A stretch of DNA of 64,000 bases, from the NCBI GenBank assembly GCA_019232625.1, contig JAFANP010000035.1:139512-203511 (forward strand). The letters run 5' to 3'. The stretch comes from Alphaproteobacteria bacterium (GTDB lineage Bacteria; Pseudomonadota; Alphaproteobacteria; Sphingomonadales; Sphingomonadaceae). The translations under genes and the position numbers were made by a program. Positions 15,391 to 31,366 of this stretch are shown piece by piece (the first letter of the stretch is position 1; the number at the start of each line of letters is the position of its first letter). The notes beneath the pieces are model-generated. The model saw only the letters and a program-made list of their open reading frames with translations, made no database searches and was not told the DNA's origin.

Positions 15391-15396
15391 CTGGCT

Positions 15397-15951: not shown

Positions 15952-16185
15952 GTTCGTTCAATGGAGCGCCCCCGCTAAAGGCTATTTCAAGTAAATGCTA
16001 CTCTATAATATTACGGTGTGTCCTGTTTGCGAGCGCCGCGGCCGCTCAAGACGCGCTTTTCCCTACGGAACGGCCAATTTCCCGGTGGAACTACGGTATA
16101 GTAACTGCTGCCGCCACCCGCTCGGGTGCTTGGCCCCTTCCTCACCCCCGCCGCGACGCTGCCGGCGGAGCGCTCCGCCACGCCT

Positions 16186-16617: not shown

Positions 16618-16626
16618 TCCGCCGGA

Positions 16627-16884
16627 TCAGTCTTGGACTTCGTCGTCTAAGGCAGCGGCCTCGGCCGGTATCGACACACTCGCAAGAGCCTCGACCTGCT
16701 CCGCGGAGAGCGCCGCGGCAGGAAGCGCCTCCCGATCCCGCCGCTTAAGGCGCCGATATTCCTCCGCGGAGAGCAGGACGAGGTCCTCGCGCCCGTGGTT
16801 GGTGATCATCACCGGCTCCCTCAGGGCGATGGACCGGAAGCGGCCGAATTCCTTTTGGACCCGTGCCGAGCTTGCGACGCTCAT
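16627..16884 (-). CDS. Phd/YefM-family antitoxin
   Basis: 85 residues starting at MSVASSARVQKEFG, which has GGAGGAG 6 bases upstream. A longer frame from 16902 begins inside that ribosome site. The core FGRFRSIALREPVMITNHGR followed by LVLLSAEEYRRLKRRD is the prevent-host-death (Phd/YefM) fold, which binds its own promoter DNA and neutralises the toxin through its C-terminal tail. The C-terminus is acidic, as expected for toxin binding. It is upstream of and adjacent to the PemK-like gene. Confidence 0.8.
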   Translation of the reverse strand: MSVASSARVQKEFGRFRSIALREPVMITNHGREDLVLLSAEEYRRLKRRDREALPAAALSAEQVEALASVSIPAEAAALDDEVQD

Positions 16885-17133
16885 GCAAATCTCCTCCCGC
16901 ACCTTTTACGGAAAATCCGGAACAACGCAAATGGGCTGCACGCTCGTCCGTAAAGCTCCCTCACCCCACGCTCGCCCGACGAGGGAGAGAATGCTTTCCC
17001 CTTTGAGGCGAGACGACTTGAAGAAGGCGGATCCACTGACGAGTTAGACGCCCCTCGGACGTTCTCAGACCTCCGGCATGACGCGGCTCATCCATCGAGC
17101 CCGGGTGACGATCCCACCTGAAGCCGACCGACC
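16885..17133. other. Intergenic region without recognised gene
   Basis: No convincing coding frame or RNA was seen between the antitoxin start and the end of the TonB receptor gene. The TA promoter should lie at its left end, transcribed leftwards. The piece ACCTTTTACGGAAAATCCGG near 16901-16920 holds a short symmetric element that could be the antitoxin operator. Confidence 0.4.
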
Positions 17134-19704
17134 CTAGAAGCGGGTGCCGAGCCTCAGGCCGATCGTGCGCGGCGTGTAGACCACCGCATAGGGCCGCTGG
17201 AAGCATTGGCCGCATTCCTGGAAGCGGGTGAGTTGCGCGCGCTCGTCGAAGGCGTTCTCGACGTAGAGCTCGGCCGTCCACTTGCGCCAGTCGAAGCCGA
17301 TGGCGAAGTCGGCCATCGTGTAGGCGGGAAGACGGCCGGTGCCGGTCGCCGGGTCCTTGGCGTTGCCGAGCGAGTCGAAGATCAGGGTGCGGATGTCGGA
17401 CGAGGCGGAGCTCTGGTGGGAGACGACCGCCTGGAGGTGAATCTTCGCGTCGGCGGCGATCGGGAACTCGTAGCGGCCGGTCGCGGCGAGCTTGAACTTG
17501 GGCGTGACGGGCAGGCGGGTGCCCTTGGCGGCGGAGACGAAATTGGGCGGCGCGCAGACGAAGGTCGGGTCGTCGGCGCCGCACAGGTTCCGCCGGGTCC
17601 GCGCATCGGTGTAGGCGGCGCTTCCGGTGAAGCTCAGCCCCTGGGCGGGCCGCCACGAGGCGTCCAGCTCCACCCCCTTGATGCGGGCGTCGGGGCCGTT
17701 GTGGATCTCGGTGAAGCTGTTCGCGCCGAGGAAGGAGAATTGGAAGCTCTTCCAGTCCTGCCAGAAGAAGGCGCCGTTCAGCGTGAGCCGGCCCGGCCAG
17801 GCGGTCTTGAACCCCACCTCGTAATTGGTGAGCGTATCCTCGTCATAGGGCGCGATGTCGCCGCGGCGATTGATTCCGCCGGGACGGAAGCCCTTCGACC
17901 AGGTGGCGTAGAGGAGATGGTCCGGCGTCACCTTCCAGGTGACGTTGACCCGGTGGGTGAAGCCGTCGCCGCTGGTCGACTTGGGGCGGACGCCGTTGCT
18001 GGCGAAGACGCCGAGATTGGTGCAGGGCGAGCCCGGGACGATCGGCGGCAGGAGGGTCCCGCCCAGATTGTTGCGCAGCGTCGCGCCGGTGGTCGTGAAG
18101 CATTGGATGACGCCGGTGCGCGAGCTGCCCGCGGCGTTGAACGGGCTGGCGGTGAAGCCGCCCGCCGGATTGCGGCCGAAGCCGAAGAAACCGATCAGCG
18201 AATTGTCGTATTTATAGGCCCTGAGGCCGCCGGTGAGGCTGACCGTGTCGGTGACGTCGAAGCTCACCTCGCCGAACGCGGCATAATCCTTGTCGACGCG
18301 GTCCTGCTGGGTCAGCCACAAGGTGCCCGGACGGCCGTTCACCGAGACCGCGGCGCCGAGGTTGGTGACCTGGTAATCCTGGTGGATGCGGTTGGTCTGG
18401 CGCTGGTAGAAGAGGCCGGCGACGAGCCGCAGGCGCTTGTCGGCGGGCGAGGCGATCCTGAGCTCGTGGCTCATCTTGCGGAAATGGTCGCTGGCGACGA
18501 TGTGCTGGGTGGGGTCGATCGTGTTGCCGGCATTGTCCTGGAAGTAGAAATAGCCCGCCAGGCCGCCATAGCTCGAATAGAGCTCGTCATAGGCCTCGGC
18601 ATAATCGGTATAGTCGCTGGTCGAGTTGCGCCGGCGGTCGAGATAGGCGGCGGCGTAGGTGAGATCCCAGTTGGAGATCTTGCCCTCGATGGTCAGCGCC
18701 GCCTGGCCGAAGCGGTCGTGGTTGCGCTCCGGGAAGAAATGCTGGACGCGAAGGTCGCCGAGGCTCTCGTCCATGCCGAAGGCGCCGTGCGACTTCTGGT
18801 CCTGGCCGAACAGGCTGGCCGTCGCCGTCCAATTGTCGCTGAGGTCGATGCCGAGGGCGGCGCGGGCGCCGATCGTGTCGACGTCGTTATAGTCCTTCTC
18901 GACGAGCGCGTTGTTGTTGATGGTGATTCCGCCGACCGTCGGCAGGAAATGGCGGGTGCCCGGGATGTTGTCGATATAGCCCGCGTCGTGGCGGGCCCAG
19001 CCGACGAGGCGCAGGGCCGCCGAGGCGCCGAGCGAGGCGTTGACGAAGCCCTCGATCTTGCCGCCGACGCCGCCCTTTCTGACCGTGTTCACCTCGGCGT
19101 CGACGCCGCCATAGGTGGAAGCCGGGTCGGGCTTGTTGGTGATGATGCGGATGGTGCCGGCCTCGGACGAGGCGCCGTAGAGCGTGCCCTGCGGCCCGCG
19201 CAGCACCTCGATGCGGGCGATATCGTAGATGTGGACGTCGAGCGTGCCGCCGATCGTCGTCACCGGCTGCTCGTCGAGATAGACGCCGACCGAGGGCAGC
19301 GAGCCCGAATGGTTGCCGTCGCCGCCCGAGGCGACGCCGCGTATGTAGACGTTGGTGGTGCCGGGCGAGCTGGTCTGGAAGGAGACGCTCGGCGTGAGCT
19401 TGGTGTAGTCGTTGAAGTTGGAGACGTTGAGCTCCTCGAGGCGCTGGGTGCCGAGCGCCTGGATCGAGATCGGGACGTCCTGGAGATTCTCCTCGCGCTT
19501 CTGGGCGGTGACCACAATCTCGTCGCTGTCCGCCTCCGCCACATTGGTGACAGGGACGGGCTCGCTCGGCAAGGCGTTGGCGGTGCCCGCCTGCGACAGC
19601 GGGTCTTGCGCATCGCCCTGGGCCAGCGCGGCGCCGGCATGGGTCAGGATCGTCGAGGCGAGCAGCAAGGCGGCGGCGCGAAGGCTTGTCTCGGGCAGGC
19701 GCAT
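17134..19704 (-). CDS. TonB-dependent outer-membrane receptor
   Basis: 856 residues with a signal peptide ending near AALAQ. A TonB box-like stretch (DEIVVTAQKR near 60-70) leads into the plug domain about 75-190 (VPISIQALGTQRLEEL, VYIRGVASGG, RIEVLRGPQGTLYGASSEAG). The 22-strand barrel runs to the C-terminal strand TIGLRLGTRF with a terminal Phe. Such receptors import scarce ligands (metal chelates, vitamins, glycans) using proton motive force through TonB. It starts 64 bases after the TPR-sulfotransferase stop and is the last gene of the run from the PQQ dehydrogenase. The ligand cannot be read from sequence; a lanthanide or PQQ-related ligand is an inference from position only. Confidence 0.93.
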   Translation of the reverse strand: MRLPETSLRAAALLLASTILTHAGAALAQGDAQDPLSQAGTANALPSEPVPVTNVAEADSDEIVVTAQKREENLQDVPISIQALGTQRLEELNVSNFNDYTKLTPSVSFQTSSPGTTNVYIRGVASGGDGNHSGSLPSVGVYLDEQPVTTIGGTLDVHIYDIARIEVLRGPQGTLYGASSEAGTIRIITNKPDPASTYGGVDAEVNTVRKGGVGGKIEGFVNASLGASAALRLVGWARHDAGYIDNIPGTRHFLPTVGGITINNNALVEKDYNDVDTIGARAALGIDLSDNWTATASLFGQDQKSHGAFGMDESLGDLRVQHFFPERNHDRFGQAALTIEGKISNWDLTYAAAYLDRRRNSTSDYTDYAEAYDELYSSYGGLAGYFYFQDNAGNTIDPTQHIVASDHFRKMSHELRIASPADKRLRLVAGLFYQRQTNRIHQDYQVTNLGAAVSVNGRPGTLWLTQQDRVDKDYAAFGEVSFDVTDTVSLTGGLRAYKYDNSLIGFFGFGRNPAGGFTASPFNAAGSSRTGVIQCFTTTGATLRNNLGGTLLPPIVPGSPCTNLGVFASNGVRPKSTSGDGFTHRVNVTWKVTPDHLLYATWSKGFRPGGINRRGDIAPYDEDTLTNYEVGFKTAWPGRLTLNGAFFWQDWKSFQFSFLGANSFTEIHNGPDARIKGVELDASWRPAQGLSFTGSAAYTDARTRRNLCGADDPTFVCAPPNFVSAAKGTRLPVTPKFKLAATGRYEFPIAADAKIHLQAVVSHQSSASSDIRTLIFDSLGNAKDPATGTGRLPAYTMADFAIGFDWRKWTAELYVENAFDERAQLTRFQECGQCFQRPYAVVYTPRTIGLRLGTRF

Positions 19705-19768
19705 TCATCTTCCCCCAGGAGAGTAGCGACTGGAGGGGAGGGTGTTCCGCTTTGCCGGGAGCGTCAAA

Positions 19769-21445
19769 TCATTTTGGCGCCGGAACGGGCTCGGCCGCGC
19801 CCCTGTTGCCGGTTTGCCACTGCGCCGGCGCCTCCGGATAGGCCTCGATCACGGGGCCGAGCGCCGCCTTCAGCGGCTCCAGCCAGCTTTCGTAAGGGCG
19901 CCACTGGCCCTGGCCGTCGCGGTTGAGGGGACGGCGGACCTGCTCGGAGCTGGCCGTGCGCACGGCGCGGGGATTTTCGTGGAAGCGCAGGCATGTCGGG
20001 TCGAAATCGAGGCCGAGATAGGCGAGCAGCGCGCGCACCTCGCCCTCCGGATCGTCGACCAGCCGCTCATGGACGACGCGGTGGATGCGCCCGGGCAGGA
20101 CTCCTTCGAAATGGGCCATCAGCCGCACGTAATCCGCGTAATAACGGCCCATGTCGGCGAGCGAATAGCTGAAGCCCTGGCCGCGGGCGTAATGCTGGCG
20201 GAAGTTGGAGAAGCAGCAGTCGAGCGGATGCCGCCGCGCGTCGACGATCCTGGCGTTGGGCAGGATGAGGTGGATGAGGCCGACATGCACCCAGTTGTTC
20301 GGCATCTTGTCGATGAAGAAGGGGCGTCTCTCGCGGCGCTGAACGCGGGTGCGCTCGAGATATTCCTCGCCGAGCGCGCGCAGCGCCCCGGCATCCAGGC
20401 CGGCGAGGCTTTCGGGATAGAGGTCGCCATTCTCCCGGCCGGCGCCGAGGCGGCGGGCGAGGAGCGGGACGTCGGGCAGCTCCATCGTCCCCTCGACGAG
20501 CGGGTGCGAGGCGAGGATCTGCTCGACCAAGGTGGAGCCCGCGCGCGGCATGCCGAGGATGAAGATGGGGTCGGGCGCGGGGCTGCCCTGCCCCTGCCGC
20601 GCCGCGAAGAAGACCGGGGTGAAGAGGGCGACGGCGCGGTCGACCCCGGCGGTCGCCTCCGCCGCGTCATAGCCGATCATCGCGTGGCGGAGGCGGTTGC
20701 CCTCGGCATAATGGGCGAAGGCGCGCTCCGCCTCGCCCGCATCCTCCAGCGCCCGGGCAAGGGCGAAATGGAGGTGGAGGCGGTCGTGGACGCCGAGCGG
20801 CTCGACCGCGAGAGCCGCCTCGAGGGCGGCGGCGTCCTCGGCGCCGAGCCTCACCGTCTTCAGGTTGGCGAGGCTCCACCAGGCTTCGCCGAGCGTCGGC
20901 GCAAGCGCGATGGCGCGCCGATAGGCGGCGACGCCCTCGTCGGTCCGCCCCACCGTCTTCAGGACATGGCCGTAGCTCATCCAGACCTTGGGCTGGTCGG
21001 GGAGGCGGGCGAGCACCTCGGCGTAGAGGGCGAGCGCCTCTTCGTAGCCGCCGAGGCGGCTCAGCGCCGCGGCCTTGAGGTTCTGGTGCCCTGCATGGCC
21101 GGGCTCCGCCTCGAGGATCGCGTCGAGCGCCGCGATCGCCTCGGCCGGCCGGTTCTGGCGGTAGAGGGCGGTGGCGAGGTTGGCGCGGGCGGCGGTGAAG
21201 CCCGGGGCGAGCTCCAGCGCCCGGCGCAGCAGCGCCTCGGCGTCGGCGTAGCGGCCGAGGCGACCGGCAAGCTCGGCCAGCATGCGGATCGCGGCGACGT
21301 CGGTCGGGCGCCGATGGAGGTGGGGGCGAAGGATCGCCTCGGCGACGGCGAGATCGTTGTCGAGCAATGCGCCGGCCGCGCGCAGCAGGGCCGGATCGCG
21401 CTTGGCGGCCCCGAGCGCCTCGTCCAGCGCCGCGTCGGTCGTCAC
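19769..21445 (-). CDS. TPR-repeat sulfotransferase family protein
   Basis: 558 residues from a GTG that overlaps the stop of the upstream gene (GTGA). Residues about 10-230 are tetratricopeptide repeats (for example RYADAEALLRRALELAPGFT and AEAIAALDAILEAEPGHA). Residues about 290-530 form a sulfotransferase domain with the PAPS-binding loop FILGMPRAGSTLVEQ and the later RHPLDCCFSNF segment. Members transfer sulfate from PAPS or are related to protein sulfotransferases. In sphingomonads this gene often lies beside a TonB-dependent receptor, as here, suggesting a shared role in receptor function or ligand modification. The real substrate is unknown. Confidence 0.88.
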   Translation of the reverse strand: MTTDAALDEALGAAKRDPALLRAAGALLDNDLAVAEAILRPHLHRRPTDVAAIRMLAELAGRLGRYADAEALLRRALELAPGFTAARANLATALYRQNRPAEAIAALDAILEAEPGHAGHQNLKAAALSRLGGYEEALALYAEVLARLPDQPKVWMSYGHVLKTVGRTDEGVAAYRRAIALAPTLGEAWWSLANLKTVRLGAEDAAALEAALAVEPLGVHDRLHLHFALARALEDAGEAERAFAHYAEGNRLRHAMIGYDAAEATAGVDRAVALFTPVFFAARQGQGSPAPDPIFILGMPRAGSTLVEQILASHPLVEGTMELPDVPLLARRLGAGRENGDLYPESLAGLDAGALRALGEEYLERTRVQRRERRPFFIDKMPNNWVHVGLIHLILPNARIVDARRHPLDCCFSNFRQHYARGQGFSYSLADMGRYYADYVRLMAHFEGVLPGRIHRVVHERLVDDPEGEVRALLAYLGLDFDPTCLRFHENPRAVRTASSEQVRRPLNRDGQGQWRPYESWLEPLKAALGPVIEAYPEAPAQWQTGNRGAAEPVPAPK

Positions 21446-22239
21446 GGCGCCGCCGGCTCCGCGACGAGAGGCACGCGATAGGACGCGAGGATGGCCTTCA
21501 CCTCGGCGGCGCGGCGCGCGAGGATTCCTTCCACCTCCTCGCGCAGCGCATGGTCGGCCCTGCGGGTGCCCATCGAGACGTCGAACACCATCGGCAGCTG
21601 CGGCCCGTCGAACGGCCGCGCGAGCGGCGTCAGCTTGAGGGGCGCCTTCTCCCGTTCGCTGAAATAGCCGGCGGTCGGCCCCCAGACGAAGGCCACGTCC
21701 ACCTCCCCGGCCGCGACCGCCTTCATGATCGGCTCCTGCGGCGCCGGGTCGTCATAGTCGCCGTAGACGGTGTAGCCGCGCACGTTGGCGGTGATCCCGC
21801 GCCGCATCAGCGCATGGGCGGGCGGCGTGTTGGCGCCGTCGTCGCCGATCAGCTGCACGCCGATCCTCAGCGTCGCCAGGCGCGGGTCGTCGAACCCGTC
21901 TATGTCGAGGTGCCGGTCGGCGCGGGTCACCGCGACGTAGGTGGAGCGGTAATAGGGACGGGTGGTGGCGAGCATGTCGACGCTGCTGCCGATGCCCGGG
22001 ATGAGATCGCAGGTGCCGGCGTTCAAAGTCTCGCGGACGTTGCCCCGCCGTTGCGCGTGCCAGGTGTAGGCGACGGCGGCGCCGAGGTCTTTCGCGATCA
22101 GGTCGACGAGCTTGTTCTCGAAGCCTTCGCGCCTGTCGTTCGAGAAAGGGAGGTTGTTGGGATCGGCGCAGACGCGCAGGATGCGCGGCGGCGGGGCCCC
22201 GCCGGCGGACGCTGGGGCGAGAAGGAGCGCGATCAACAC
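21442..22239 (-). CDS. PQQ-dehydrogenase-associated periplasmic binding protein
   Basis: About 265 residues if started at GTG 22239, just before the hydrophobic signal VLIALLLAPASAGG. The frame is open further, to a GTG at 22407 that overlaps the preceding stop, but those 55 codons run through a palindromic repeat (22252-22383), so the true start is uncertain. The mature protein is a type II periplasmic binding fold: ILRVCADPNNLPFSN, LGAAVAYTWHAQRRGNVR, LNAGTCDLIPGI, YYRSTYVAV. It belongs to the quinoprotein dehydrogenase-associated ABC substrate-binding family (MoxJ/XoxJ-like), thought to help activate or mature periplasmic PQQ alcohol dehydrogenases. No transporter subunits are nearby, which supports such a non-transport role. 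Confidence 0.82.
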   Translation of the reverse strand: MLIALLLAPASAGGAPPPRILRVCADPNNLPFSNDRREGFENKLVDLIAKDLGAAVAYTWHAQRRGNVRETLNAGTCDLIPGIGSSVDMLATTRPYYRSTYVAVTRADRHLDIDGFDDPRLATLRIGVQLIGDDGANTPPAHALMRRGITANVRGYTVYGDYDDPAPQEPIMKAVAAGEVDVAFVWGPTAGYFSEREKAPLKLTPLARPFDGPQLPMVFDVSMGTRRADHALREEVEGILARRAAEVKAILASYRVPLVAEPAAP

Positions 22240-22251
22240 TGCGCCGATCCC

Positions 22252-22383
22252 CGATCCTCCCCGTCCCCGAAGGCGATGGGGAGGGGGACCGCGTGAATCG
22301 CGGTTGAGGGGCCCGGTGCCGACAGCCCCTCCACCGCCTTCGGCGGTCCCCCTCTCCATGCGCTCCGCGCACGGGGAGGATGG
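22252..22383. repeat. Palindromic repeat family C, copy 1
   Basis: Two GC-rich hairpin units in inverted orientation, each made of CCCCTCC/GGAGGGG-type arms (GATGGGGAGGGGGACCGCG near 22275; GCGGTCCCCCTCTCCATGCG near 22343). It lies between the beta-propeller gene and the binding-protein gene inside a tightly packed operon and overlaps the possible N-terminus of the latter. Related copies are at 29034, 40348 and 62328. Confidence 0.75.
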
Positions 22384-22403
22384 TAAGGCCGGGGCAGCCC
22401 ATT

Positions 22404-23372
22404 TCACGGCGCCACCGCCAGGCCCCAGGGCTTGCCGCCGGTGCGGATCGTGCCGAGCGGCCTGCCGGAGGCGATGTCGATGGCGGTGACGTCCCCGGAA
22501 AGGCCGTTCGCCGTGTAGAGGCGCTTCTCGTCGGGCGAGAGGGCGAGGTTCCAGGCGCGCCAGCCGACCGGGAAGGTGCGAAGGATGGCGAGCGAGGCGG
22601 GATCCACCTCGGCGACCAGCTTGGCGCGGCCCAGCGCGACGAAGGCGCGCCGGCCGTCGCGGGTGAAGGCGATGCCGACGGGCTGGACGAAGACGTCGGA
22701 GGTCGGAGCGACCAGCCGGGCGGCGGCGAAGTCGATCTTGCCGGCAAGCCGGCGCGTGGCCGCGTCGAAGACCGAGACGGTGCCCCTCGCCTCGGACGAG
22801 ACCCAGAAGCGCCTTCCGTCCGGAGCGAAGGCGATGAAGCGGGGACGAGCGTCGACCAGGAGATTGTCGAGCACCGTCCCGGTCGCGGCGTCGATGACGT
22901 GCGCGCTGGAGCCGCTTTCCGAAGCCTGGACGACCAGCCGGCCGTCCGGGCTGGCCGCGGTCCCTTCCGGCTCGCCGCCGACCGGCACCTCGGCCACGAC
23001 CTTGCGCGCGGCGATGTCGACGATGGAGAGGAGGTTGTCGTCCTCGTTGGCGACGTAGAGGCGGCGCCCGTCCGGCGAGAGGGCGAAGGTCTCCGGATCG
23101 GGCCCGGACGGGAGCCGGCCGGACACGCCGCCCGTCTTCAGGTCGACGACGGCGATGTCGTTGCTGTCGCTGGCGGCGACGTAGAGGCTCCTGCCGTCGC
23201 GCGAGAGCTGAATGCCGCGCGGCCTCTTGCCGACGTCGAGCCGGCCCGTCTCCCTGAGGGTCGCGCCGTCGATGACGTGGACGACGTTCGCTTCCTCGTC
23301 GGAGACGTAGAGCGTGTCGGCACAGGCGCCGCCGGAGAAGAGCAGGAAGGCGAGGGCGGCGGCGCGGATCAT
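22404..23372 (-). CDS. PQQ-dependent catabolism-associated YVTN beta-propeller protein
   Basis: 322 residues with a signal peptide (MIRAAALAFLLFSGGACA). At least six blades of about 42 residues are visible, each with the YVTN-type signature: LYVSDEEANVVHVID, LYVAASDSNDIAVVD, LYVANEDDNLLSIVD, and later LYTANGLSGDVTAID. It matches the beta-propeller family found beside PQQ alcohol dehydrogenases. Periplasmic; possibly a chaperone or scaffold for the dehydrogenase or its electron acceptor. The start overlaps the stop of the upstream cytochrome gene (ATGA). Confidence 0.9.
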   Translation of the reverse strand: MIRAAALAFLLFSGGACADTLYVSDEEANVVHVIDGATLRETGRLDVGKRPRGIQLSRDGRSLYVAASDSNDIAVVDLKTGGVSGRLPSGPDPETFALSPDGRRLYVANEDDNLLSIVDIAARKVVAEVPVGGEPEGTAASPDGRLVVQASESGSSAHVIDAATGTVLDNLLVDARPRFIAFAPDGRRFWVSSEARGTVSVFDAATRRLAGKIDFAAARLVAPTSDVFVQPVGIAFTRDGRRAFVALGRAKLVAEVDPASLAILRTFPVGWRAWNLALSPDEKRLYTANGLSGDVTAIDIASGRPLGTIRTGGKPWGLAVAP

Positions 23373-23785
23373 GTCCTCGTATAGAGGAAGGCGGCGATGT
23401 CCCGCGAGTCCTGCCGAGTCACGCCGAGGTCCGGCATCGCCGTTCCCGGCGAGATGGACTGCGGCCGCTCGATCCAGGCGCGAAGATTGTCGGGGTTGTT
23501 CGCCAGGCGGCCGCCGATGATGCCGCGGGCGGCGACGCCGTCGAGCGGCGGGCCCACCGTGCCGTTGGCGCCGGAGACGCCCATGATCGCGTGGCAGCCG
23601 CCGCAGCTATATCTGCCGAAGGCGGCGCGGCCGCGGGCGACGTTGCCGAGCGTCATCGCTTCCGCCTTCCGCTCGAGCTCCTGCGCCTCGTAGCGCGCCT
23701 CCATCCAGAAGCCGGCGACCGTCAGCAGGACGGCGCCGGCGGCCGACCCGGCGATCCAGAGCGGCCTAGTGCGCGGCGACGGCAT
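23369..23785 (-). CDS. Membrane-anchored cytochrome c
   Basis: 138 residues from MPSPRTRPLWIAG, preceded by GAGG 6 bases upstream; an earlier ATG at 23842 lies deeper in the ctaG gene and lacks such support. One N-terminal membrane helix (IAGSAAGAVLLTVAGFW) acts as uncleaved anchor, then a single class I cytochrome c domain with haem motif CGGCH near residue 62 and axial Met in GTAMPDLG. The gene overlaps the end of ctaG by 20 bases and the start of the beta-propeller by 4. It is probably an electron carrier between the PQQ dehydrogenase and the oxidase of the same operon. Confidence 0.9.
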   Translation of the reverse strand: MPSPRTRPLWIAGSAAGAVLLTVAGFWMEARYEAQELERKAEAMTLGNVARGRAAFGRYSCGGCHAIMGVSGANGTVGPPLDGVAARGIIGGRLANNPDNLRAWIERPQSISPGTAMPDLGVTRQDSRDIAAFLYTRT

Positions 23786-24644
23786 GGGGGACCTCGCTGG
23801 CCTTGAGCCATTGATAGAGGAACCAGAGGGCGGCGGCGGCATGGAAGACGCCGCCCGGTATCCACATGACGAGCCCGGCGAGCTGCTGGTCCTCGGCGGG
23901 GCTGAGCCCCATCGGCGTCATGCCCAGGGCGGCATAGCCGGAATACCAGGGGCTGGTGGAGAAGGCCATGAGCGCGCCGAGCGCGCCGCCGACCAGGCTG
24001 GTGACGAACAGGCAAAAGGCGGCGAGGCCATAGCCCTGCCGCCCCGCCCGGCCGTGCGCCATCGCCCACCAGAAGAGCAGGGCGGTGAGGAGGAAGCTGA
24101 GATGCTGGGCGACGTGCCAGCCCTCGCCGCGCAGGGCGCGGTCGAAGAGCGGCGGCATGTGCCATATCCACATCGCCGCCGACTGGAGGAGGGTGGCGGC
24201 GACGGGAAGGGAGAGCAGGTCCCACAGCGGTCCCGCCCCTCGCGCCGCTCCGGCCAGCGCCTGCCGGCCTCCCGCGGGGAAGGCCCAGAGGAGCACCGGG
24301 CCCGGCCGGGCGAGGACGAGGAGGAGGGCGGCGGGCAGCATGATCAGCTCGTGCTCGATCATGTGCAGGGTGAAGCTGTGCTCGCCCGCCTGGTGGAGCG
24401 GCGAGGCGACGGAGCCGGCGAGGACCGACCAGCCGGCGGCGAAGAGGAGGGCGCCGCGCCGCAGTGCCCCCCGCCCCTGCTCGGCGCGCCGCCAAAGCCG
24501 GGCGAAGCCGAGCGCGTAGAGGCCGGCGAGGAGCAGCAGCGGCACGGCCGCCCACGGCTCGGGCCGCCAGGCGTCGTGCGCCGCGCCGCCATGCGCCAGC
24601 GCCGCGCTCGGCAGGAGGAGGAAGAGGAGGGCGAGGGCCCTCAT
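23766..24644 (-). CDS. ctaG: CtaG-type (caa3) cytochrome c oxidase assembly factor
   Basis: 292 residues starting at MRALALLFLLLPSAALAHGG; the ATG overlaps the upstream stop (ATGA). After a signal sequence there are about seven membrane helices. Conserved His residues lie in SFTLHMIEHELIM, MWIWHMPPLF and WHVAQHLSFL, typical of the caa3_CtaG family, which delivers copper or otherwise assembles caa3-type oxidases. It belongs with the four oxidase subunit genes just upstream. It differs from the soluble Cox11-type protein that is also called CtaG. Confidence 0.88.
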   Translation of the reverse strand: MRALALLFLLLPSAALAHGGAAHDAWRPEPWAAVPLLLLAGLYALGFARLWRRAEQGRGALRRGALLFAAGWSVLAGSVASPLHQAGEHSFTLHMIEHELIMLPAALLLVLARPGPVLLWAFPAGGRQALAGAARGAGPLWDLLSLPVAATLLQSAAMWIWHMPPLFDRALRGEGWHVAQHLSFLLTALLFWWAMAHGRAGRQGYGLAAFCLFVTSLVGGALGALMAFSTSPWYSGYAALGMTPMGLSPAEDQQLAGLVMWIPGGVFHAAAALWFLYQWLKASEVPHAVAAH

Positions 24645-24976
24645 CCGAAGCAGGCCGGGATGAGGAGGGCGGCGACGATCTGGAGGACGATCGCGACCGC
24701 TAGCAGGCCGGCGACGAGCAGGCTGACGAAGCCGATGAACGGGTGGGAGAGCTCGCTGTCGCCCGGCGCGCGGATACGCCACGAGAAGAAGGCGCCGGCG
24801 GCGGTCAGCGCCAGAGCGAGAAGGCCGACGACGACGTTCATCAGATTGTCGCCCGGGCTGCAGCCGGCGAAGACGAGGTTCGATCCGAACTGCTGGGAGC
24901 CGAACCAGGCGAAGGCGCCGGCCATGATGCCGGACCAGGCGAGGAGCGTGTCGCGGGTCTCCCGGCGCAGCTTCAT
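24641..24976 (-). CDS. coxP: Small oxidase-associated membrane protein (CoxP-like)
   Basis: 111 residues, ATG overlapping the upstream stop (ATGA). Three predicted membrane helices: LLAWSGIMAGAFAWFGSQQF, VVVGLLALALTAAGAFFSW and FVSLLVAGLLAVAIVLQIVA. Position and size match CoxP of the alternative oxidase CoxMNOP described in Bradyrhizobium. The biochemical role of CoxP is unknown; a small subunit or assembly helper is likely. The symbol is given from gene order, not from strong sequence signatures. Confidence 0.72.
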   Translation of the reverse strand: MKLRRETRDTLLAWSGIMAGAFAWFGSQQFGSNLVFAGCSPGDNLMNVVVGLLALALTAAGAFFSWRIRAPGDSELSHPFIGFVSLLVAGLLAVAIVLQIVAALLIPACFG

Positions 24977-25590
24977 GCCACCCACCTCGGCACCCAGTAG
25001 ATGAGGGCGTAGATCGGCAGCCAGGTCAGCCACACGAAGCGCCAGTACATGGCGTTCTCGGCGACGTCGACGATCCGCCGGTTCTCCCCGCCGTGGCGGG
25101 TGAAGATGAGCGCCGTCAGCACGAGGGAATCGGCGATGTCGGTGAGGATGTGGGTGAGGTGGAGGAACAGCAGCGCCCAGATGATCGAGCCGTAGGCGTT
25201 GTCGGTCCACAGCACGTTGAGCGTCGTGAACTCGAGCGCCCGGAACAGCAGCAGCAGGGCGAAGAACGGCAGCAGGACCAGCATGTAGCGCCGCACGGTG
25301 GCGAGGTCGTGCCTCTCGGCGGCGCGCTTGACGATCGTGTTGGGGATCTCGCTCACGAGGATGACGAGGGTGAAGAGCGTCCCCCACAGGAGGCCGGGCG
25401 GCTGCCAGGGATCGGGGGGCCAATTCTCCTCCAGCCCCTCGAGGAAGAAATAGCTGCCGATGGCGAGGGCGAAGGCGGTGCCCTCGATCAGGAAGAAGGC
25501 GACGACGCCCCACCAGGTCAGGCTGCGGTGGCCGAAGGCGTGGGTCGGCAGAGCCCGCACGTCCTCGGTGAATCTGGGCGGGAGCGTCAT
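24973..25590 (-). CDS. coxO: Cytochrome c oxidase subunit III-like protein (CoxO)
   Basis: 205 residues with ATG overlapping the subunit I stop. Five or so membrane helices, with FFLIEGTAFALAIGSYFFL and HLTHILTDIADSLVLTALIF; the Glu and His residues typical of subunit III are present. It is shorter than the seven-helix canonical subunit III, and the missing two helices appear to be fused to the C-terminus of subunit I in the neighbouring gene, exactly as in CoxN/CoxO of Bradyrhizobium. Subunit III stabilises the oxygen-reducing core. Confidence 0.88.
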   Translation of the reverse strand: MTLPPRFTEDVRALPTHAFGHRSLTWWGVVAFFLIEGTAFALAIGSYFFLEGLEENWPPDPWQPPGLLWGTLFTLVILVSEIPNTIVKRAAERHDLATVRRYMLVLLPFFALLLLFRALEFTTLNVLWTDNAYGSIIWALLFLHLTHILTDIADSLVLTALIFTRHGGENRRIVDVAENAMYWRFVWLTWLPIYALIYWVPRWVA

Positions 25591-27512
25591 TCGATCACCG
25601 GCTCGGGAGAGGGGGGCGACTTGGGCCAGAACCAGGCGGTGAGCGCGGCGGCGACGGGGAAGGCGCCGACGAGGACCGCCCAGGGCGTGAAGATGGAGGA
25701 GATGAAGAGGCAGGTGGTCGATATGGCCGCCCAGAGCGGCCAGATGGACGGCAGCGGCGAGGCCTCGCGCAGGTCCGGCCGCGCCTCCATCACCGTCGTC
25801 AGAAGCAATTCGCGGTCGTCGACGCGAAGGCCGGTGACGACCGGGAGGTGGTGGCGATTGTCCCACAGCGGCGTGCGGCTGGCGACGACCGGAATGTGCG
25901 CGAAATTATATTGCGGCGGCGGCGAGGGCGTCGCCCATTCGAGGGTCGGCGCGTCCCACGGATTGGGGCCGGCGACGGCGCCGCGCAGCAAAGAGTGCAC
26001 CGCGTTGACGACGAACAGGAGCACGGCGAGCGCGACGACGAAGGAGCCGAGCGTTGCGAGCATGTTCATCTCGTCCCAGCCCATGCCGGTCGGATAGGTG
26101 TAGACTCGCCGCGGCATGCCCCACATGCCGAGCAGGTGCATCGGGAAGAAGGCGACCTGGAAGCCGAGGAAGATCATCCAGAAGCTGGTCTTGCCGAGGC
26201 CCTCGCCCATCATCCTGCCGGTGATCTTGGGGAACCAGTAGGTGATCGCGCCGAGCAGCGGGAAGACGGCGCCGCCGATCAGCACGTAGTGGAAGTGGGC
26301 GACGATGAAATAGGTGTCGTGGACCTGGAGGTCGATCGGCACGCTCGCCTGCATGACGCCCGAGAGCCCGCCGATGACGAAGGTGACGATGAAGGCGACG
26401 ACGTAGAGCAAAGGCACCTGGAAGCGCGGCCGCCCGTCCCAGATCGTCGCGATCCAGCAGAAGATCTGGATGCCGGACGGGATCGCCACCGCCATCGTCG
26501 CCGCGGTGTAGAAGGAATAGCCCATGCGCGGCAGGCCGGTGGCGAACATGTGGTGGACCCAGACGCCGAAGGCGAGAAGGCCGATGGTGACGAGGGCGAG
26601 GACCATGGCCGGGTAGGCGAAGACCGGCCGGCGGCAGAAGGTCTCGGTGATCTGGCTGACGAAGCCCGCGCCGGGCACGAAGATGATGTAGACCTCCGGA
26701 TGGCCGAAGAACCAGAAGAGGTGCTGCCAGAGCAAAGGGTCGCCATGCTCGTACTGGTTGTAGAATTGGGTTCCGACCAGCCGGTCGGCGATCAGCATGC
26801 CCGAGGCGAGCGCGACGGAGGGCATGGAGAAGATCACCATGAACGCGGTGACCAGCACGCCCCAGACGAAGAGCGGCATCCGCGCCAGCGTCATGCCCGG
26901 GGCGCGCTGCTTGAGGATGGTGGCGACCAGCTCCACCGCGACGGCGAGCGCCGCCACCTCGGTGAAGGTGATCATCTGCGCCCAGATGTCGGTGCGCTTG
27001 CCGGGCGAGAATTCGGGCCCCGAGAGAGGGACGTAGGCGAACCAGCCGGCATCGGGGCCGATGTTCAGCACGAAGGCGACCCACAGCAGGGTGCCGCCGG
27101 CGAGGTACATGTAATAGGAAAAGGCGTTCAGCCGCGGGAAGGAGATGTTGCGGGTGCCGATCATCAGCGGCACCAGGTAGATGGCCATCGCCTCCATCAC
27201 CGGCACGGCGAACAGGAACATCATCGTCGTGCCGTGCATGGTGAAGAGCTGGTTGTAGCGGTCGGGCGAGATGAGGCCGCTTTCCGGCCTGGCGAGCTGG
27301 AGCCGCATGGCGAGGGCAAGCAGGCCGCCGAGCATCAGGAAGACGAGCGCGGTGACGATGTAGCGCTTGCCGATGCGCTTGTGGTCGGTGGTGGTGAGCC
27401 AGCCCCAGAGGCCCGGCGCGTCGCCCCAGGTCCGCTCGAGCCGCCCGTGAAGCGCGGCCCCCTGGAGGTCCTCGCCGTCGCGCGGCAGATCCCGGCCGGA
27501 GAGCACGGTCAT
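25587..27512 (-). CDS. coxN: Haem-copper oxidase subunit I with C-terminal subunit III segment (CoxN)
   Basis: 641 residues, longer than ordinary subunit I (about 530-560). The ATG overlaps the subunit II stop. Core motifs: LFTMHGTTMMFLFAVPV with a low-spin haem His, WFFGHPEVYIIFVPGAG with the CuB His cross-linked to Tyr, WVHHMFATGLP with the two other CuB His, and VAHFHYVLIGG with haem ligands. After helix 12 there are an extra soluble stretch and two more helices (PLWAAISTTCLFISS, WAVLVGAFPVAAALTAWF), which correspond to the first part of subunit III. This is the catalytic oxygen-reducing, proton-pumping subunit. Confidence 0.95.
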   Translation of the reverse strand: MTVLSGRDLPRDGEDLQGAALHGRLERTWGDAPGLWGWLTTTDHKRIGKRYIVTALVFLMLGGLLALAMRLQLARPESGLISPDRYNQLFTMHGTTMMFLFAVPVMEAMAIYLVPLMIGTRNISFPRLNAFSYYMYLAGGTLLWVAFVLNIGPDAGWFAYVPLSGPEFSPGKRTDIWAQMITFTEVAALAVAVELVATILKQRAPGMTLARMPLFVWGVLVTAFMVIFSMPSVALASGMLIADRLVGTQFYNQYEHGDPLLWQHLFWFFGHPEVYIIFVPGAGFVSQITETFCRRPVFAYPAMVLALVTIGLLAFGVWVHHMFATGLPRMGYSFYTAATMAVAIPSGIQIFCWIATIWDGRPRFQVPLLYVVAFIVTFVIGGLSGVMQASVPIDLQVHDTYFIVAHFHYVLIGGAVFPLLGAITYWFPKITGRMMGEGLGKTSFWMIFLGFQVAFFPMHLLGMWGMPRRVYTYPTGMGWDEMNMLATLGSFVVALAVLLFVVNAVHSLLRGAVAGPNPWDAPTLEWATPSPPPQYNFAHIPVVASRTPLWDNRHHLPVVTGLRVDDRELLLTTVMEARPDLREASPLPSIWPLWAAISTTCLFISSIFTPWAVLVGAFPVAAALTAWFWPKSPPSPEPVIE

Positions 27513-28534
27513 TTCAGCGTCTCCAGATAGGCGACGACGTTGTGGAGCTCGTCCGCGTCGAGGCCGATATAGGGCATGTTGGCGCCCGGCTTCACGCCCT
27601 GCGGATCGGCGATCCAGGCGTGGAGCGGGCCGGTGCCGTTGGGCAGGGTCCCGGCCGCGATGGTGCGCCGGCTCATCAGGTGGGTGAGGTCCGGCCCCAC
27701 GCCCGCCCCCGCCGGGGTGCCGGCGACGGCGTGGCAGGCGCTGCACTGGCGGGTCATGAAGAAGCGGTAGCCGGCGATCGCCTGCGGAGTCGTCGGCGCC
27801 GCCGCCGGGCGGGTCTGGGCGGCGAGCCAGCGGGCATAGTCGGCGGGCGTGTCGACCGTAACGTCGAGCGCCATGTGAGCGTGCTGCAGCCCACAATATT
27901 CGGCGCACTGGGCCCTGTACCGGCCCACCTTCGTGGGGGTGAGCACGATATCGGTGACTCGGCCGGGGATGAGGTCCTGCTTGCCGGCGAGGTTCGGCAC
28001 CCAGAAGCTGTGGATGACGTCGTTCGCCTTGAGCGTGATCATCGCCGCGCTTCCGGTAGGCAGGTGGATCTCGTTGGCGGTGCGGAAATTCTGCGACGGG
28101 TCGGGGAAGTGGTAGCGCGCCTCCCACCACCATTGGTTGCCGATCAGCTCGATGCTGACCACGGGGCGGCCGGCCGCGGTGGAATAAGCGAGGCTGCGGT
28201 CGGTGAGGAAGCTGGCGACGGCGAGGCCCATCAGCCCGCCGATCACCGCCGCAGTCCAGGCGAAGAGCGCGATGCGAAGGCCCCGGTCGCGCGGCGCCGT
28301 CGCGCCCTCGTCGGGCATGCGGTCGGCGCGGTGGCCGCCGCGGCGCCAGTAAGCGGCGAAGAGGAAGGCCATGACGGCGGCGAAGAACAGGCCGGTGACG
28401 ATGCAGAAGAGCGTGAAGAGGTCGTCGATCAGCGCCGCCTCCCGCCCCTCGCGGCCGCCGATCGTCTGAATCCCGCCGCAGCCGGCGAGGGCCAGCAGCG
28501 GCAGCAGCATCAGGGAGGCGCCGCGCCGCCTCAA
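27509..28534 (-). CDS. coxM: caa3-type oxidase subunit II with fused cytochrome c (CoxM)
   Basis: 341 residues. Start TTG at 28534 has GGAGGAG close upstream and overlaps the previous stop (TTGA). An ATG at codon 9 is the alternative. Lipobox LAGC at about residue 19, two membrane helices (about 36-60 and 87-110), a cupredoxin domain with CuA ligands in CAEYCGLQHAHM near 215, and a C-terminal class I cytochrome c with CSACH near 268 and Met in ANMPYIGL. Fusion to cytochrome c defines caa3-type oxidases and lets it accept electrons directly from small carriers such as those encoded beside it. Confidence 0.95.
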   Translation of the reverse strand: MRRRGASLMLLPLLALAGCGGIQTIGGREGREAALIDDLFTLFCIVTGLFFAAVMAFLFAAYWRRGGHRADRMPDEGATAPRDRGLRIALFAWTAAVIGGLMGLAVASFLTDRSLAYSTAAGRPVVSIELIGNQWWWEARYHFPDPSQNFRTANEIHLPTGSAAMITLKANDVIHSFWVPNLAGKQDLIPGRVTDIVLTPTKVGRYRAQCAEYCGLQHAHMALDVTVDTPADYARWLAAQTRPAAAPTTPQAIAGYRFFMTRQCSACHAVAGTPAGAGVGPDLTHLMSRRTIAAGTLPNGTGPLHAWIADPQGVKPGANMPYIGLDADELHNVVAYLETLK

Positions 28535-29181
28535 TTCTCCTCCCCCGACGGCTGCGCCTTCGTCTCAGGCACGACTTTCTGGCGCTCCTGCAGGGTCTGC
28601 GGCTCGGTGTTGCTCATCTCGTCGGCGCGGGCCGAGAGGGCGTCCTGGCGGGGGTGGGCGGAGAGGGACTTGACGTAGGCGGCAAGCTCCCAGGCCTGCT
28701 GCTCGGTGATCTTGTTGCGCCAGTCGGGCATGCCGTTCGGGCGCCCGTAGAGGATCGAGGCGACGATATCCTCCATCCGCCCGCCGTAGCGCCACTGGTC
28801 GTCCATCAGCGGCGGCCCCATGCCGCCGCCGCCGTGGAAGTGGCAGCCCGAGCAGTTGAACCAGCCGAACCACTTCTGCCCCTGGGCGATGTGGAAGGCG
28901 TTGTTCTCATATTCGGCCGAGCGCGGATCGCCCCTGGGGACGAAGGCGGCGGTCTCCGCCTTGGGCTGGCCGTTCATGTCGCGCTGCTCGCGGTCGCAGC
29001 CGGCGAGGGCGAGGAGGAAGGCGAGGGCGATGAAGCCCCCTCCCTGCAAGGGAGGGGCGAGGGGTGGGTGCGCAAGCGAAGCGAAGCGCCTCTTCGAAAG
29101 GCGTACCCACCCCCGGCCCCTCCCTGCGTGCAGGGAAGGGAGGGCGCGAGGAAGGAAGCTATTTCGGAAGGGCGAAGACAT
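28531..29181 (-). CDS. Lipoprotein cytochrome c beside the PQQ dehydrogenase
   Basis: 216 codons as drawn. A class I cytochrome c domain has haem motif NCSGCH and axial Met in GMPDW. The hydrophobic signal FIALAFLLALAGC with a lipobox appears only at about residues 46-58. The first 45 residues read through a palindromic repeat (29034-29145), so the start is doubtful. ATG 29181 has GGGAGG about 9 bases upstream but lies inside the dehydrogenase gene; TTG at 29049 would give a normal-length signal without a ribosome site. This is the best candidate for the direct electron acceptor of the dehydrogenase (the XoxG role), feeding the oxidase encoded next. Confidence 0.82.
   Translation of the reverse strand: MSSPFRNSFLPRALPSLHAGRGRGWVRLSKRRFASLAHPPLAPPLQGGGFIALAFLLALAGCDREQRDMNGQPKAETAAFVPRGDPRSAEYENNAFHIAQGQKWFGWFNCSGCHFHGGGGMGPPLMDDQWRYGGRMEDIVASILYGRPNGMPDWRNKITEQQAWELAAYVKSLSAHPRQDALSARADEMSNTEPQTLQERQKVVPETKAQPSGEEN
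29034..29145. repeat. Palindromic repeat family C-like, copy 4
   Basis: Inverted GC-rich arms: CCCCTCCCTGCAAGGGAGGG near 29036 and CCCCTCCCTGCGTGCAGGGA near 29117, with an inner GGGTGGGT/ACCCACCC pair and AGGCG/CGCCT in the centre. It is placed between the dehydrogenase stop and the lipoprotein signal of the cytochrome gene, in an operon otherwise joined by 4-base overlaps. Confidence 0.7.
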
Positions 29182-30988
29182 AGAGCGTCCCTCCCGGCTT
29201 GGTGCGGCCCGGCAGGTCCCTCATCGCATTGACCATTCCGAGCGCGGCCGTCGGATCGCGGGGGTCGAGCTGGGCGGAGACGATCGCGCCGGCCCAGCCG
29301 CCGACCCCGGTCACCACCGCGACATATTGCCGCCCGTCCGGCCCCCTATAGCTGACCGGCTGGCTGATGATGCCGCTGTCGAGCCGCACCTGCCAGAGCA
29401 GCCGTCCGCCGCCCGCCGCGGACGCGTCGATCGCCTTGAACCAGCCGTCCATCGTCCCGTAGAAGACGACGTCCCCGCCGGTGGCGAGCGCGCCCGACCA
29501 GAGGGGCAGGCTCTCCTTGATCTCCCACACCGGCTTCGCCCGCACCGGATCCCAGGCGGTGAAGACGCCGCGATGGCCGCCCGGGCCCGCATACATCTTG
29601 ACGTCGGCGCCGACATAGGGCGTCCCGGCGATGTAGTTCGCCTCGAACACCCCCTCGTCCATGCACATATTCTCGTGGGGGACGTAGAGCAGGCCGGTGC
29701 GCGGGCTGAAGGCGGACGGGTTCCAGTCCTTGACGCCCGAGGCGGTGGGGCAGATGTTGCGGATCACCCGCCCTTCCTTGGGCGCCTTTTCCTTCACCAT
29801 CCGCACCCGGCCCGTGGCGAGGTCGACTCCGTCCATCGAGTTGATGAAGCCGTAGGCCTCGGCCGAATAGACCTGCCCGGTGCGGCGATCGATGACGTAC
29901 ATGTAGCCGTTGCGCCCGGGGCGGACGAGGACGGGCGTCATCCTGCCGTGGATCGGCATGTCGAGCAGCACCTGCTCGTTGATGTCGTCATGGTCAAACA
30001 GATCGTGCGGGCTCGACTGGTAGAACCAGCGCGCCTGGCCGGTGGCGATGTCGCGGGCGAAGACTCCGGTCGTCCACTTGTTGTCGCCGGGGCGCTGCTG
30101 CGCGTTCCACGGCCCCGGATTGCCGGTGCCGTAATAGATCATCTTGAGCTGGGGATCGTAGCTGATCCAGCCCCACACCGTGCCGCCGCCGATCTTCCAG
30201 GCCTCGGCGGGCCAGGTGTGGACGCCGAGGTCGGCGCCGCGGTCGGAGGCGTAATAGGGCTTGAACGAGGGGCCGATCAGCACGTCCTTGTCCGGCCCCG
30301 TGCTGTAGGCCTTCCAGGCGAGCCGACCGGTGCCGGCGTCGAGCGCGGCGAGCCAGCCTCGGACTCCCATCTCGCCGCCGGAATTGCCGACCAGCACCTT
30401 TCCCTCGGCGACGAGCGGCGACATGGTGATCGTCTCGCCCTTCGAGATGTCGCCTATCTTGTTGCGCCAGACCTGGTGGCCGCTCTTCGCGTCGATGGCG
30501 AACACCTCGCCGTCGAGCGTCGTGAAGAAGAGGCGGCCGTTCGCATACATGGCGCCGCGATTGACGACGTCGCAGCAGGCGATGCCCTGGCTCGCCGGCG
30601 CGGGGTGCGGGCGGAACACCCACACCGCCCGGCCTCCCTTGGACAGGTCGAGCGCCCAGACGTGGTTCGGATAGGGCGTCGTCAGGTACATCATGTTGCC
30701 GACGACGATAGGGGCTGCCTCGTGCCCCTTGCGGTTCAGGGTGTCGAAGGTGAAGGCGAGCTTCAGGTTGCGCACGTTGGAGCGGGTGATCTGGTTGAGG
30801 CCGCTGTAGCGCGTGCTTGCATAGTCGCGCGACGGCATGGTCCACTGGCCGTCCTCGGGCGGGGAGGCCGCCGCGGCGGGGCGGGCGCCGTTATGCTGCG
30901 CAGCAAGCGGTGCAGCAAAGGCGCTGCAAAGGAGCATGAAGGCGGCGATCGACGGCTTGCGCAATATTCGCAGGCACGCGTGTCGCAT
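29159..30988 (-). CDS. PQQ-dependent alcohol dehydrogenase, lanthanide (XoxF-like) type
   Basis: 609 residues from MRHACLRILRK, which begins a signal peptide ending near PLAAQ; the frame to 31093 adds untranslated-looking residues. Eight-bladed quinoprotein propeller. The vicinal disulphide is Cys138-Cys139 (ACCDVVNRGAMY). GNSGGEMGVRG supplies cofactor contacts. The catalytic base is in PHDLFDHDDINEQ: Asp332 and, two residues on, Asp334, the extra Asp that marks lanthanide-dependent enzymes (calcium enzymes have Ala there). It oxidises a primary alcohol in the periplasm and passes electrons to cytochrome c. No pqq synthesis genes are in the window. It is the first gene of the oxidase operon. 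Substrate cannot be told from sequence. Confidence 0.92.
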   Translation of the reverse strand: MRHACLRILRKPSIAAFMLLCSAFAAPLAAQHNGARPAAAASPPEDGQWTMPSRDYASTRYSGLNQITRSNVRNLKLAFTFDTLNRKGHEAAPIVVGNMMYLTTPYPNHVWALDLSKGGRAVWVFRPHPAPASQGIACCDVVNRGAMYANGRLFFTTLDGEVFAIDAKSGHQVWRNKIGDISKGETITMSPLVAEGKVLVGNSGGEMGVRGWLAALDAGTGRLAWKAYSTGPDKDVLIGPSFKPYYASDRGADLGVHTWPAEAWKIGGGTVWGWISYDPQLKMIYYGTGNPGPWNAQQRPGDNKWTTGVFARDIATGQARWFYQSSPHDLFDHDDINEQVLLDMPIHGRMTPVLVRPGRNGYMYVIDRRTGQVYSAEAYGFINSMDGVDLATGRVRMVKEKAPKEGRVIRNICPTASGVKDWNPSAFSPRTGLLYVPHENMCMDEGVFEANYIAGTPYVGADVKMYAGPGGHRGVFTAWDPVRAKPVWEIKESLPLWSGALATGGDVVFYGTMDGWFKAIDASAAGGGRLLWQVRLDSGIISQPVSYRGPDGRQYVAVVTGVGGWAGAIVSAQLDPRDPTAALGMVNAMRDLPGRTKPGGTLYVFALPK

Positions 30989-31171
30989 CCAGGTCCATCC
31001 CTCTGTTTCGCGGCCGTTTGTTACGCCAGCTTTACGGATTGCCGCAAGCGGCCGGGCGGGGGCCAAAACGGGAAACAGACTGATCTGGATCATGTGCCGT
31101 CGCGGGACAGGCGGAAGGCGGCGGCCGGGGGCGGATTGATCGGATGGTGAAGCCGGCGTTAACCGGGCGGC

Positions 31172-31342
31172 ATGAACAGGATGGCCTCACTCGTCGCCCG
31201 CGCCCCGAGCCGCTCAGGCCCCGCCCGCAGCTGGGCCATCGGCCGGATCGAGGAGGCGGGCGAGACGATCTCGTCCGATTTCCAGCTGTTCGTCACCGCC
31301 TTCCTGGGCGGGATCGTGTTCTTCGGCACCCTGTTCGGCTGA
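31172..31342 (+). CDS. Small single-span membrane protein
   Basis: 56 residues, divergent from the PQQ dehydrogenase gene. The N-terminal half is basic (MNRMASLVARAPSRSG), then an amphipathic acidic stretch (IGRIEEAGETISSD), then a C-terminal membrane helix (FQLFVTAFLGGIVFFGTLFG). Codon positions follow the high-GC pattern of real genes. The ribosome site is weak (GGGCGG). No family recognised; a tail-anchored small membrane protein is the structural inference. Confidence 0.6.
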   Translation: MNRMASLVARAPSRSGPARSWAIGRIEEAGETISSDFQLFVTAFLGGIVFFGTLFG

Positions 31343-31366
31343 TCCGGGAGCGGCCCGATATAAGGG

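Follow-up and report, generated by a model that had tools for sequence, protein, structure and literature searches.

Does a run of twelve same-strand genes in a sphingomonad encode a single respiratory system from alcohol to oxygen, complete with an outer-membrane importer, and what kind of oxidase would stand at its end? The question is raised by a stretch of 64,000 nucleotides from a member of the Sphingomonadaceae (here the window; GenBank assembly GCA_019232625.1, contig JAFANP010000035.1, positions 139,512 to 203,511), in which a first-pass annotation made from the letters alone had named twelve genes on one strand (here the minus strand, from 30988 down to 17134) and had proposed that they form a private respiratory branch. 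All twelve are present, with family matches as first read (Table 1). We favor, at a probability of roughly 0.7, the reading that genes 1 to 10 (the cassette; pyrroloquinoline quinone [PQQ] dehydrogenase through binding protein, 30988-21442) encode a XoxF3 methanol dehydrogenase system that would have its own weakly pumping CoxMNOP-type oxidase and use imported PQQ, and that genes 11 and 12, a sulfotransferase and a TonB-dependent receptor, are a separate pair.

The dehydrogenase and its linkage to an oxidase

Among enzymes of solved structure, the window dehydrogenase scores 455-636 bits against XoxF and MxaF methanol dehydrogenases and at most 318 bits against quinoprotein ethanol and alcohol dehydrogenases. 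Its best solved relative is 4mae (636 bits), which we take to be a XoxF2 enzyme, just as we take 7o6z to be XoxF1. The protein has the lanthanide Asp two residues past the catalytic Asp (HDLFDHDDINE) and an adjacent Cys pair (ACCD), and the genome holds one TIGR03075 enzyme at an E value of 1e-50. The DxD motif is present in 18 of 21 oxidase-linked dehydrogenases that we aligned. One of the remaining three, at locus L126, reads DHS, with Ser at the lanthanide Asp position, and its gene is inverted in orientation; in the other two, at L012 and L020 (Acetobacteraceae/Rhodospirillales), the catalytic Asp motif is gone, and in L012 so is the Cys pair.

In a phylogeny of 38 dehydrogenases, from which ten rows were dropped as duplicate or remote, along with eight remote dehydrogenases from two genomes, the 21 oxidase-linked enzymes together with those of L138 and L164 form one clade (support, 100/100). 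This clade stands apart from 7o6z, 4mae, the MxaF-like rows, the Sinorhizobium meliloti XoxF and other XoxF rows, the reference clade labels being ones that we assume or that were read from an Ala in the motif. It takes in enzymes from Terriglobia, Gemmatimonadales and Rokubacteria, and the window dehydrogenase is linked to cox, ctaG, xoxG and xoxJ genes, as in a published XoxF3 gene list. Since both this membership and the gene list match published XoxF3 systems, the architecture is one already known.

How firmly the dehydrogenase is tied to the oxidase was examined by a search for the oxidase subunit I, CoxN, across 397 genomes of the window's family. Sixteen further genomes matched at 58-75% identity, and their loci were fetched with flanks. 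A PQQ dehydrogenase lies on the stretch in all eight loci whose CoxN is at least 70% identical, and four of these (L120, L121, L122 and L125) have genes 1 to 10 in exactly the window's order. Of the other four, L123 keeps that order up to its contig end, L124 is without genes 9 and 10, and L119 and L126 are rearranged. In the eight family loci at 58-64%, oxidase and cytochrome genes are present and a dehydrogenase is absent. Among the named loci of the same oxidase clade, a PQQ dehydrogenase is found on 11 of 21 stretches, several of which end at contig ends; over the whole clade, window included, the linkage is seen in 20 of 38. Alpha- and betaproteobacteria both show it, as does a single locus from each of Acidobacteriota (Terriglobia), Gemmatimonadota and Rokubacteria.

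Proton-channel residues of the oxidases

To describe CoxN we used P. denitrificans numbering and a D- and K-channel residue list taken from part of PMC3084760. The window protein has N122 in place of D124 in the D-channel and Q349 in place of K354 in the K-channel, as well as I for Asn113, A for Ser193, E for Asn199 and S for Thr351, and it keeps Tyr35, Asn131, Ser134, Glu278, Tyr280, Ser291 and the metal-binding His residues checked. By the measures of an A1-type oxidase it thus has Glu278, Tyr280 and the metal-binding His and lacks a full D- and K-channel. A canonical aa3 oxidase elsewhere in the same genome (contig C51) has the full residue list. Because the D-channel Asp and K-channel Lys are gone and Glu278, Tyr280 and the metal ligands are kept, CoxN would be expected to reduce O2 with few or no protons pumped.

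A subunit I phylogeny of 116 rows (two partial rows omitted) places the 38 rows without Asp or Glu at position 124 in one clade, and all 78 others have one of these residues there. Loss of Asp124 is therein a single change, with an SH-aLRT value of 99, obtained by a quick method with no bootstrap. Lys354 is absent from all 80 rows of the group surrounding the CoxN clade; on this tree, its loss is older than that of Asp124. Repeated K-channel losses across family A in general are described in an excerpt of PMC8239418, and the partial texts returned by a literature search for D-channel loss in CoxN or XoxF-linked oxidases held no account of these clades. While the cluster architecture is known, the CoxN channel pattern is the new part and is worth experiment.

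CoxN is not the only oxidase found with such dehydrogenases. The family also has a second type, which shares 46-50% identity with CoxN; here Glu278 is replaced by Trp, and Lys354 by Ala, Ser or Thr. Of the 12 loci fetched for it (L138 and L229-L239), 9 have a XoxF-type dehydrogenase within the fetched stretch. Eight of these dehydrogenases are 64-66% identical to the window's and one is 50% identical. Nine other A-type loci drawn from the same list of matches (L240-L248) have no dehydrogenase above 27%, with E and Q as the residues in the seven that were read. When 40 dehydrogenases were placed in a tree, the eight closer enzymes linked to the second type came out as the sister clade (98/97) of ten linked to CoxN (from the family and from Sphingomonas), and both clades nest inside a wider CoxN-linked set. 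Given this nesting, a swap of the oxidase partner of XoxF3 is the simplest reading of the tree. Both partners are without a channel carboxylate. One genome, G182, has two XoxF3 clusters (L121 and L239), each with a different oxidase type.

PQQ supply, the sulfotransferase/receptor pair and rival readings

The window genome has no pqqC at an E value of 1e-30 and no pqqE above the profile cut-off. As pqqC is missing, import is the simple reading of how this organism would obtain PQQ. The pattern is wider: across the 397 family genomes a TIGR03075 enzyme of any type is found in 270 at an E value of 1e-100 and pqqC in 7, with the enzyme present and pqqC absent in 264. Among the nine genomes with a CoxN cluster of at least 70% identity, window included, pqqC occurs only in G182. 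Judged from these gene counts, imported PQQ seems to sustain much of the family. In the portion of PMC10875860 that treats PQQ, 16 of 38 XoxF genomes are given as able to make it, and import is suggested there too; a literature search on sphingomonad PQQ auxotrophy found nothing relevant. The window receptor was considered as the PQQ receptor PqqU and rejected (NF041535, 21.5 bits against a cut-off of 1200). Separately, contig C60 of genome G000, which is without pqqC, encodes a protein (63958-64986; L140 and L224) that matches pqqE at 118.8 bits, far under the cut-off of 381.35; the stretches L224 and L225 around such sub-cut-off matches had no match to window genes.

The sulfotransferase and receptor have a distribution of their own. 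Sulfotransferase relatives occur at an E value of 1e-75 in 228 of the 397 family genomes, and 28 of the best 29 other loci from these 228 genomes (all except L194) carry a TonB receptor gene after the sulfotransferase in the same orientation. None of the 29 has any of genes 1 to 10 within flanks of up to 1.5 kb. Conversely, the pair follows the cassette in none of the six relatives with their downstream region in view (L119, L120, L121, L122, L124 and L125). Four genomes (G081, G149, G241 and G200) own both units and hold the pair elsewhere, on 20-kb stretches without cluster genes (L220-L223). In a genome of the same genus, G328, the corresponding site (L217) keeps the window genes on the side of the major facilitator superfamily (MFS) gene and then reads MFS gene, short spacer, sulfotransferase, receptor, with no cassette. 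No window gene was matched past the receptor in L217, so only one flank is common to the two sites. G328 has no TIGR03075 enzyme at an E value of 1e-100, and such a dehydrogenase is found in 3 of the 11 genus members sampled. Comparison of the two sites suggests that the cassette either arrived in the window or was lost in G328, the direction being inferred rather than proven. The window sulfotransferase starts some 55-65 residues later than those of two same-genus relatives; truncation by the cassette is a guess, since other relatives are short too. We therefore judge, from these gene neighborhoods, that the two genes form a pair of their own, with the cassette as a neighbor. A literature search for such a sphingomonad pair found nothing relevant.

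The obvious competitor is a single twelve-gene system, in which the receptor would import substrate or cofactor and the sulfotransferase would modify something for the same pathway. The binding protein and sulfotransferase genes do share a strand and a 4-base overlap, TonB genes are reported in some published XoxF3 clusters (PMC10875860, in part), and an importer would be useful since the genome is without pqqC. Across the 397 genomes, sulfotransferase and PQQ dehydrogenase also co-occur slightly above expectation (168 with both, 102 and 60 with one alone, 67 with neither; Fisher p 0.006, kinship not corrected). We nonetheless consider this reading improbable and reject the pair as part of the XoxF3 system, because the receptor pair is without cluster genes in its flanks at 28 of the best 29 other loci, because four relatives with both units hold them apart, because the G328 site has the pair and no cluster, and because the receptor falls so far below the PqqU cut-off. 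The claim of the first-pass annotation that sulfotransferase and receptor belong to the respiratory system is thus not supported. The conservation of gene order that it proposed as a check holds for genes 1 to 10 in four of eight relatives and for genes 11 and 12 in none of six. Its idea of a private branch suits ten of the genes fairly well, not all twelve, and the architecture is not new.

Even for ten genes, several observations weigh against a weakly pumping oxidase dedicated to XoxF3. The clade name XoxF3 rests on published gene lists, as the tree contains no annotated XoxF3. In the CoxN clade, no PQQ dehydrogenase is visible beside 18 of the 38 oxidases (some stretches are cut by contig ends), cytochrome genes remain beside the oxidase in many such loci, and two of the 20 linked loci (L012 and L020) carry a dehydrogenase without the catalytic motif; the branch is to this extent only partly private, and what the recurrent linkage supports is a gene set running from dehydrogenase to oxidase. 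Loss of Asp124 is also found in eight family oxidases without a dehydrogenase and is therefore not tied to XoxF3. Nor is it universal in CoxN, an idea that we rejected: a later class-wide sample of 347 genomes gave three CoxN matches besides the window's, which read Asn, Glu (L227) and Asp (L228) at position 124, so that the loss is typical and not absolute. The sister rows L021 and L022 keep Asp124, and L021 is XoxF3-linked. The Glu at position 199 of the window protein could serve as another proton donor. Some oxidases without these channel residues pump, among them an archaeal aa3-type quinol oxidase, for which reason weak pumping is put forward as a prediction only. An ordinary energy-conserving methylotrophic branch, its oxidase pumping normally via other residues, is accordingly a rival to which we give a minor though real share of belief: Glu278, Tyr280, Ser291 and the checked metal ligands are kept, and the replacement of K354 in all 80 rows of the surrounding group makes such oxidases common and presumably of use. 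Against it, six channel positions (D124, N113, S193, N199, T351 and K354) carry other residues in the window protein, and laboratory D124N/D132N and K354/K362 oxidase mutants are strongly impaired. Somewhat less likely, in our estimate, is that the dehydrogenase serves a longer alcohol or an aldehyde, as do group 9 PQQ alcohol dehydrogenases. Sequence cannot reveal the substrate, and an excerpt of PMC9291206 reports XoxF3 of M. silvestris at very low levels only; the bit scores are nevertheless far nearer those of methanol than of ethanol dehydrogenases, and in M. trichosporium OB3b XoxF3 increases when Ce or ore is supplied (PMC12482762, in part).

Under the favored reading of a XoxF3 system with a weakly pumping oxidase, methanol or another small alcohol would be oxidized in the periplasm by a PQQ- and lanthanide-dependent XoxF3, its PQQ taken from outside the cell. 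Electrons would go first to the XoxG-like lipoprotein cytochrome c; from there, either the second cytochrome or subunit II's own cytochrome domain would relay them to CuA and the heme-copper center, where CoxN would reduce O2, most likely with little or no proton pumping along the usual route. The XoxJ-like protein and the propeller may help maturation, and copper would be loaded by CtaG and perhaps CoxP. With few or no protons pumped, the branch would serve chiefly to drain electrons and less as a strong proton pump. A more ambitious extension, that XoxF3 has been wired repeatedly, by partner swaps, to channel-disabled oxidases as a deliberately uncoupled methanol outlet running on neighbors' PQQ, seems to us doubtful, if worth stating.

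Gene layout and relation to known systems

Table 1. Features of the cassette, the adjoining pair and the upstream edge (window coordinates).
Feature	Coordinates	Strand	Evidence
PQQ-dependent dehydrogenase, XoxF-type	29159..30988	-	TIGR03075, 599.8 bits (cut-off 480.05); catalytic Asp332, lanthanide Asp334
XoxG-like lipoprotein cytochrome c (cytc1)	28531..29181	-	Cytochrome_CBB3; weak MoxG match under cut-off
CoxM-like oxidase subunit II, CuA motif and C-terminal cytochrome c, TTG start	27509..28534	-	COX2 and Cytochrom_C
CoxN-like oxidase subunit I	25587..27512	-	CtaD_CoxA, 704.6 bits (cut-off 670.75)
CoxO-like oxidase subunit III, short form	24973..25590	-	COX3, 24.7 bits (cut-off 23.8)
CoxP-like 111-aa membrane protein, three helices	24641..24976	-	Alignment and AlphaFold2 model; without Pfam family
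caa3-type CtaG, copper assembly factor	23766..24644	-	Caa3_CtaG, 173 bits
Second cytochrome c (cytc2), N-terminal anchor	23369..23842	-	Cytochrom_C, 33 bits
PQQ-associated YVTN beta-propeller, YncE-like	22404..23372	-	TIGR03866, 368.9 bits (cut-off 287.3)
XoxJ-like periplasmic binding protein	21442..22407	-	TIGR03871, 283 bits (cut-off 212.15)
TPR-sulfotransferase	19769..21445	-	TPR and Sulfotransfer_3, 159.4 bits
TonB-dependent receptor	17134..19704	-	Plug and barrel
Spacer, dehydrogenase start to MFS gene; upstream edge of cassette	30989..31366	.	L217 comparison
MFS gene upstream of cassette	31367-32665	-	

Some assignments are made below the stricter cut-offs: subunit II scores 134.2 bits against the CoxB profile (cut-off 147.7) and CtaG 47.7 bits against TIGR02737 (cut-off 279.35), and no specific receptor family profile was above its cut-off for the TonB-dependent receptor. 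Eight of the 11 junctions are 4-base overlaps, with the ATGs for two of them at 25590 and 24644, and one junction overlaps by 23 bases. The ctaG and cytochrome genes overlap by 77 bases on the longest frame and by about 20 from an internal Met near 23785, which is probably the real start of cytc2; a 64-base gap separates sulfotransferase and receptor. Such tight packing suggests a single transcript. A scan for sigma-70-like promoters found none, with 0.7 expected by chance, and one for terminator-like sites found nine, with 4.7 expected, both uninformative at such GC content; none of the terminator-like sites listed lies inside the 64-base gap or directly past the receptor. An Rfam scan of 15000-33500 at gathering scores found no riboswitch or other RNA. 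Neither of two candidate marks of insertion held up: the window has no tRNA, and the GC content of the cassette (69.9%) is close to that of the window (70.7%).

CoxP has only chance-level matches to Pfam. In an alignment of the window protein with 15 of the 34 relatives found, two residues are invariant, Cys39 and Cys109. An AlphaFold2 model (mean pLDDT 80.0, pTM 0.65) has three helices and would place both Cys on the same side; any role in copper handling or disulfide formation is a guess.

Other features were noted in passing. An in-frame palindromic repeat lies in the signal-peptide region of cytc1, ahead of the lipobox (29037-29150, minus strand), with 64 matches genome-wide, many of them sites scored on both strands, and a second in-frame palindromic element lies in that of the binding protein (about 22220-22410, minus strand). 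Beyond the receptor gene are a Ros/MucR-type regulator and a borderline PemK/MazF-like protein (15397-16617, minus strand).

The first-pass annotation held that xox clusters are normally without a dedicated oxidase and receptor. This fails against published XoxF3 clusters with a CoxI-III/CtaG oxidase: the relevant part of PMC10875860 lists XoxF3 with genes for CoxI-III, CtaG, CytC, XoxG, XoxJ, an approximately 110-aa protein, YncE and TonB, and refers to a review noting cox and ctaG beside xoxF3, and a figure legend in PMC11845868 names TonB, CytC, cox and CtaG among such cluster genes. The Acidobacteria and Gemmatimonadetes systems excerpted from PMC10875860 have, like the window, the approximately 110-aa protein between CoxIII and CtaG. 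They differ in that the twelve window genes include no NRAMP, and in that TonB, sometimes part of those clusters, is represented here by a receptor of the separate sulfotransferase pair. In the same source, XoxF3 outnumbers every other XoxF type in one metagenome study of soil and weathered granite (340 of 411 sequences), and XoxF3-based systems are described, as of 2024, as not studied experimentally so far; an extract of PMC12482762 gives later proteomics in which XoxF3 rises with lanthanides.

A further parallel is the COX operon type a-II of alpha- and betaproteobacteria, which in the portion of PMC4013037 that describes it is defined by a COX1-COX4 fusion and often has PQQ dehydrogenases and, like the window, a short COX3, a likeness drawn by description. 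That account gives Sphingomonadales type b operons only, whereas the window's family has CoxN-type operons. The host, too, is a sphingomonad rather than a member of Acidobacteria or Gemmatimonadetes, and the nearest named CoxN relatives are those of two Sphingomonas metagenome-assembled genomes, at 72-73%.

Closer in oxidase terms are the Bradyrhizobium loci L008 and L009, which we take to be the CoxMNOP alternative oxidase. They share with the window a subunit I of 63-64% identity, the oxidase gene order, Asn and Gln at the channel positions and a PQQ dehydrogenase on the same stretch; unlike in the window, the dehydrogenase and binding protein genes lie downstream of those for the oxidase. 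Among sphingomonads, the operons for polyethylene glycol (PEG) and polyvinyl alcohol use also have a PQQ dehydrogenase, that for PEG with a TonB receptor gene nearby, and we know of no CoxMNOP oxidase in either. The oxidase partner, its missing channel residues and the pqqC-less relatives pose testable questions on the energy yield and cofactor economy of the methanol sink. Set beside these systems, the gene content of the locus makes it a further example of the XoxF3-plus-oxidase kind, next to an apparently unrelated sulfotransferase/receptor pair.

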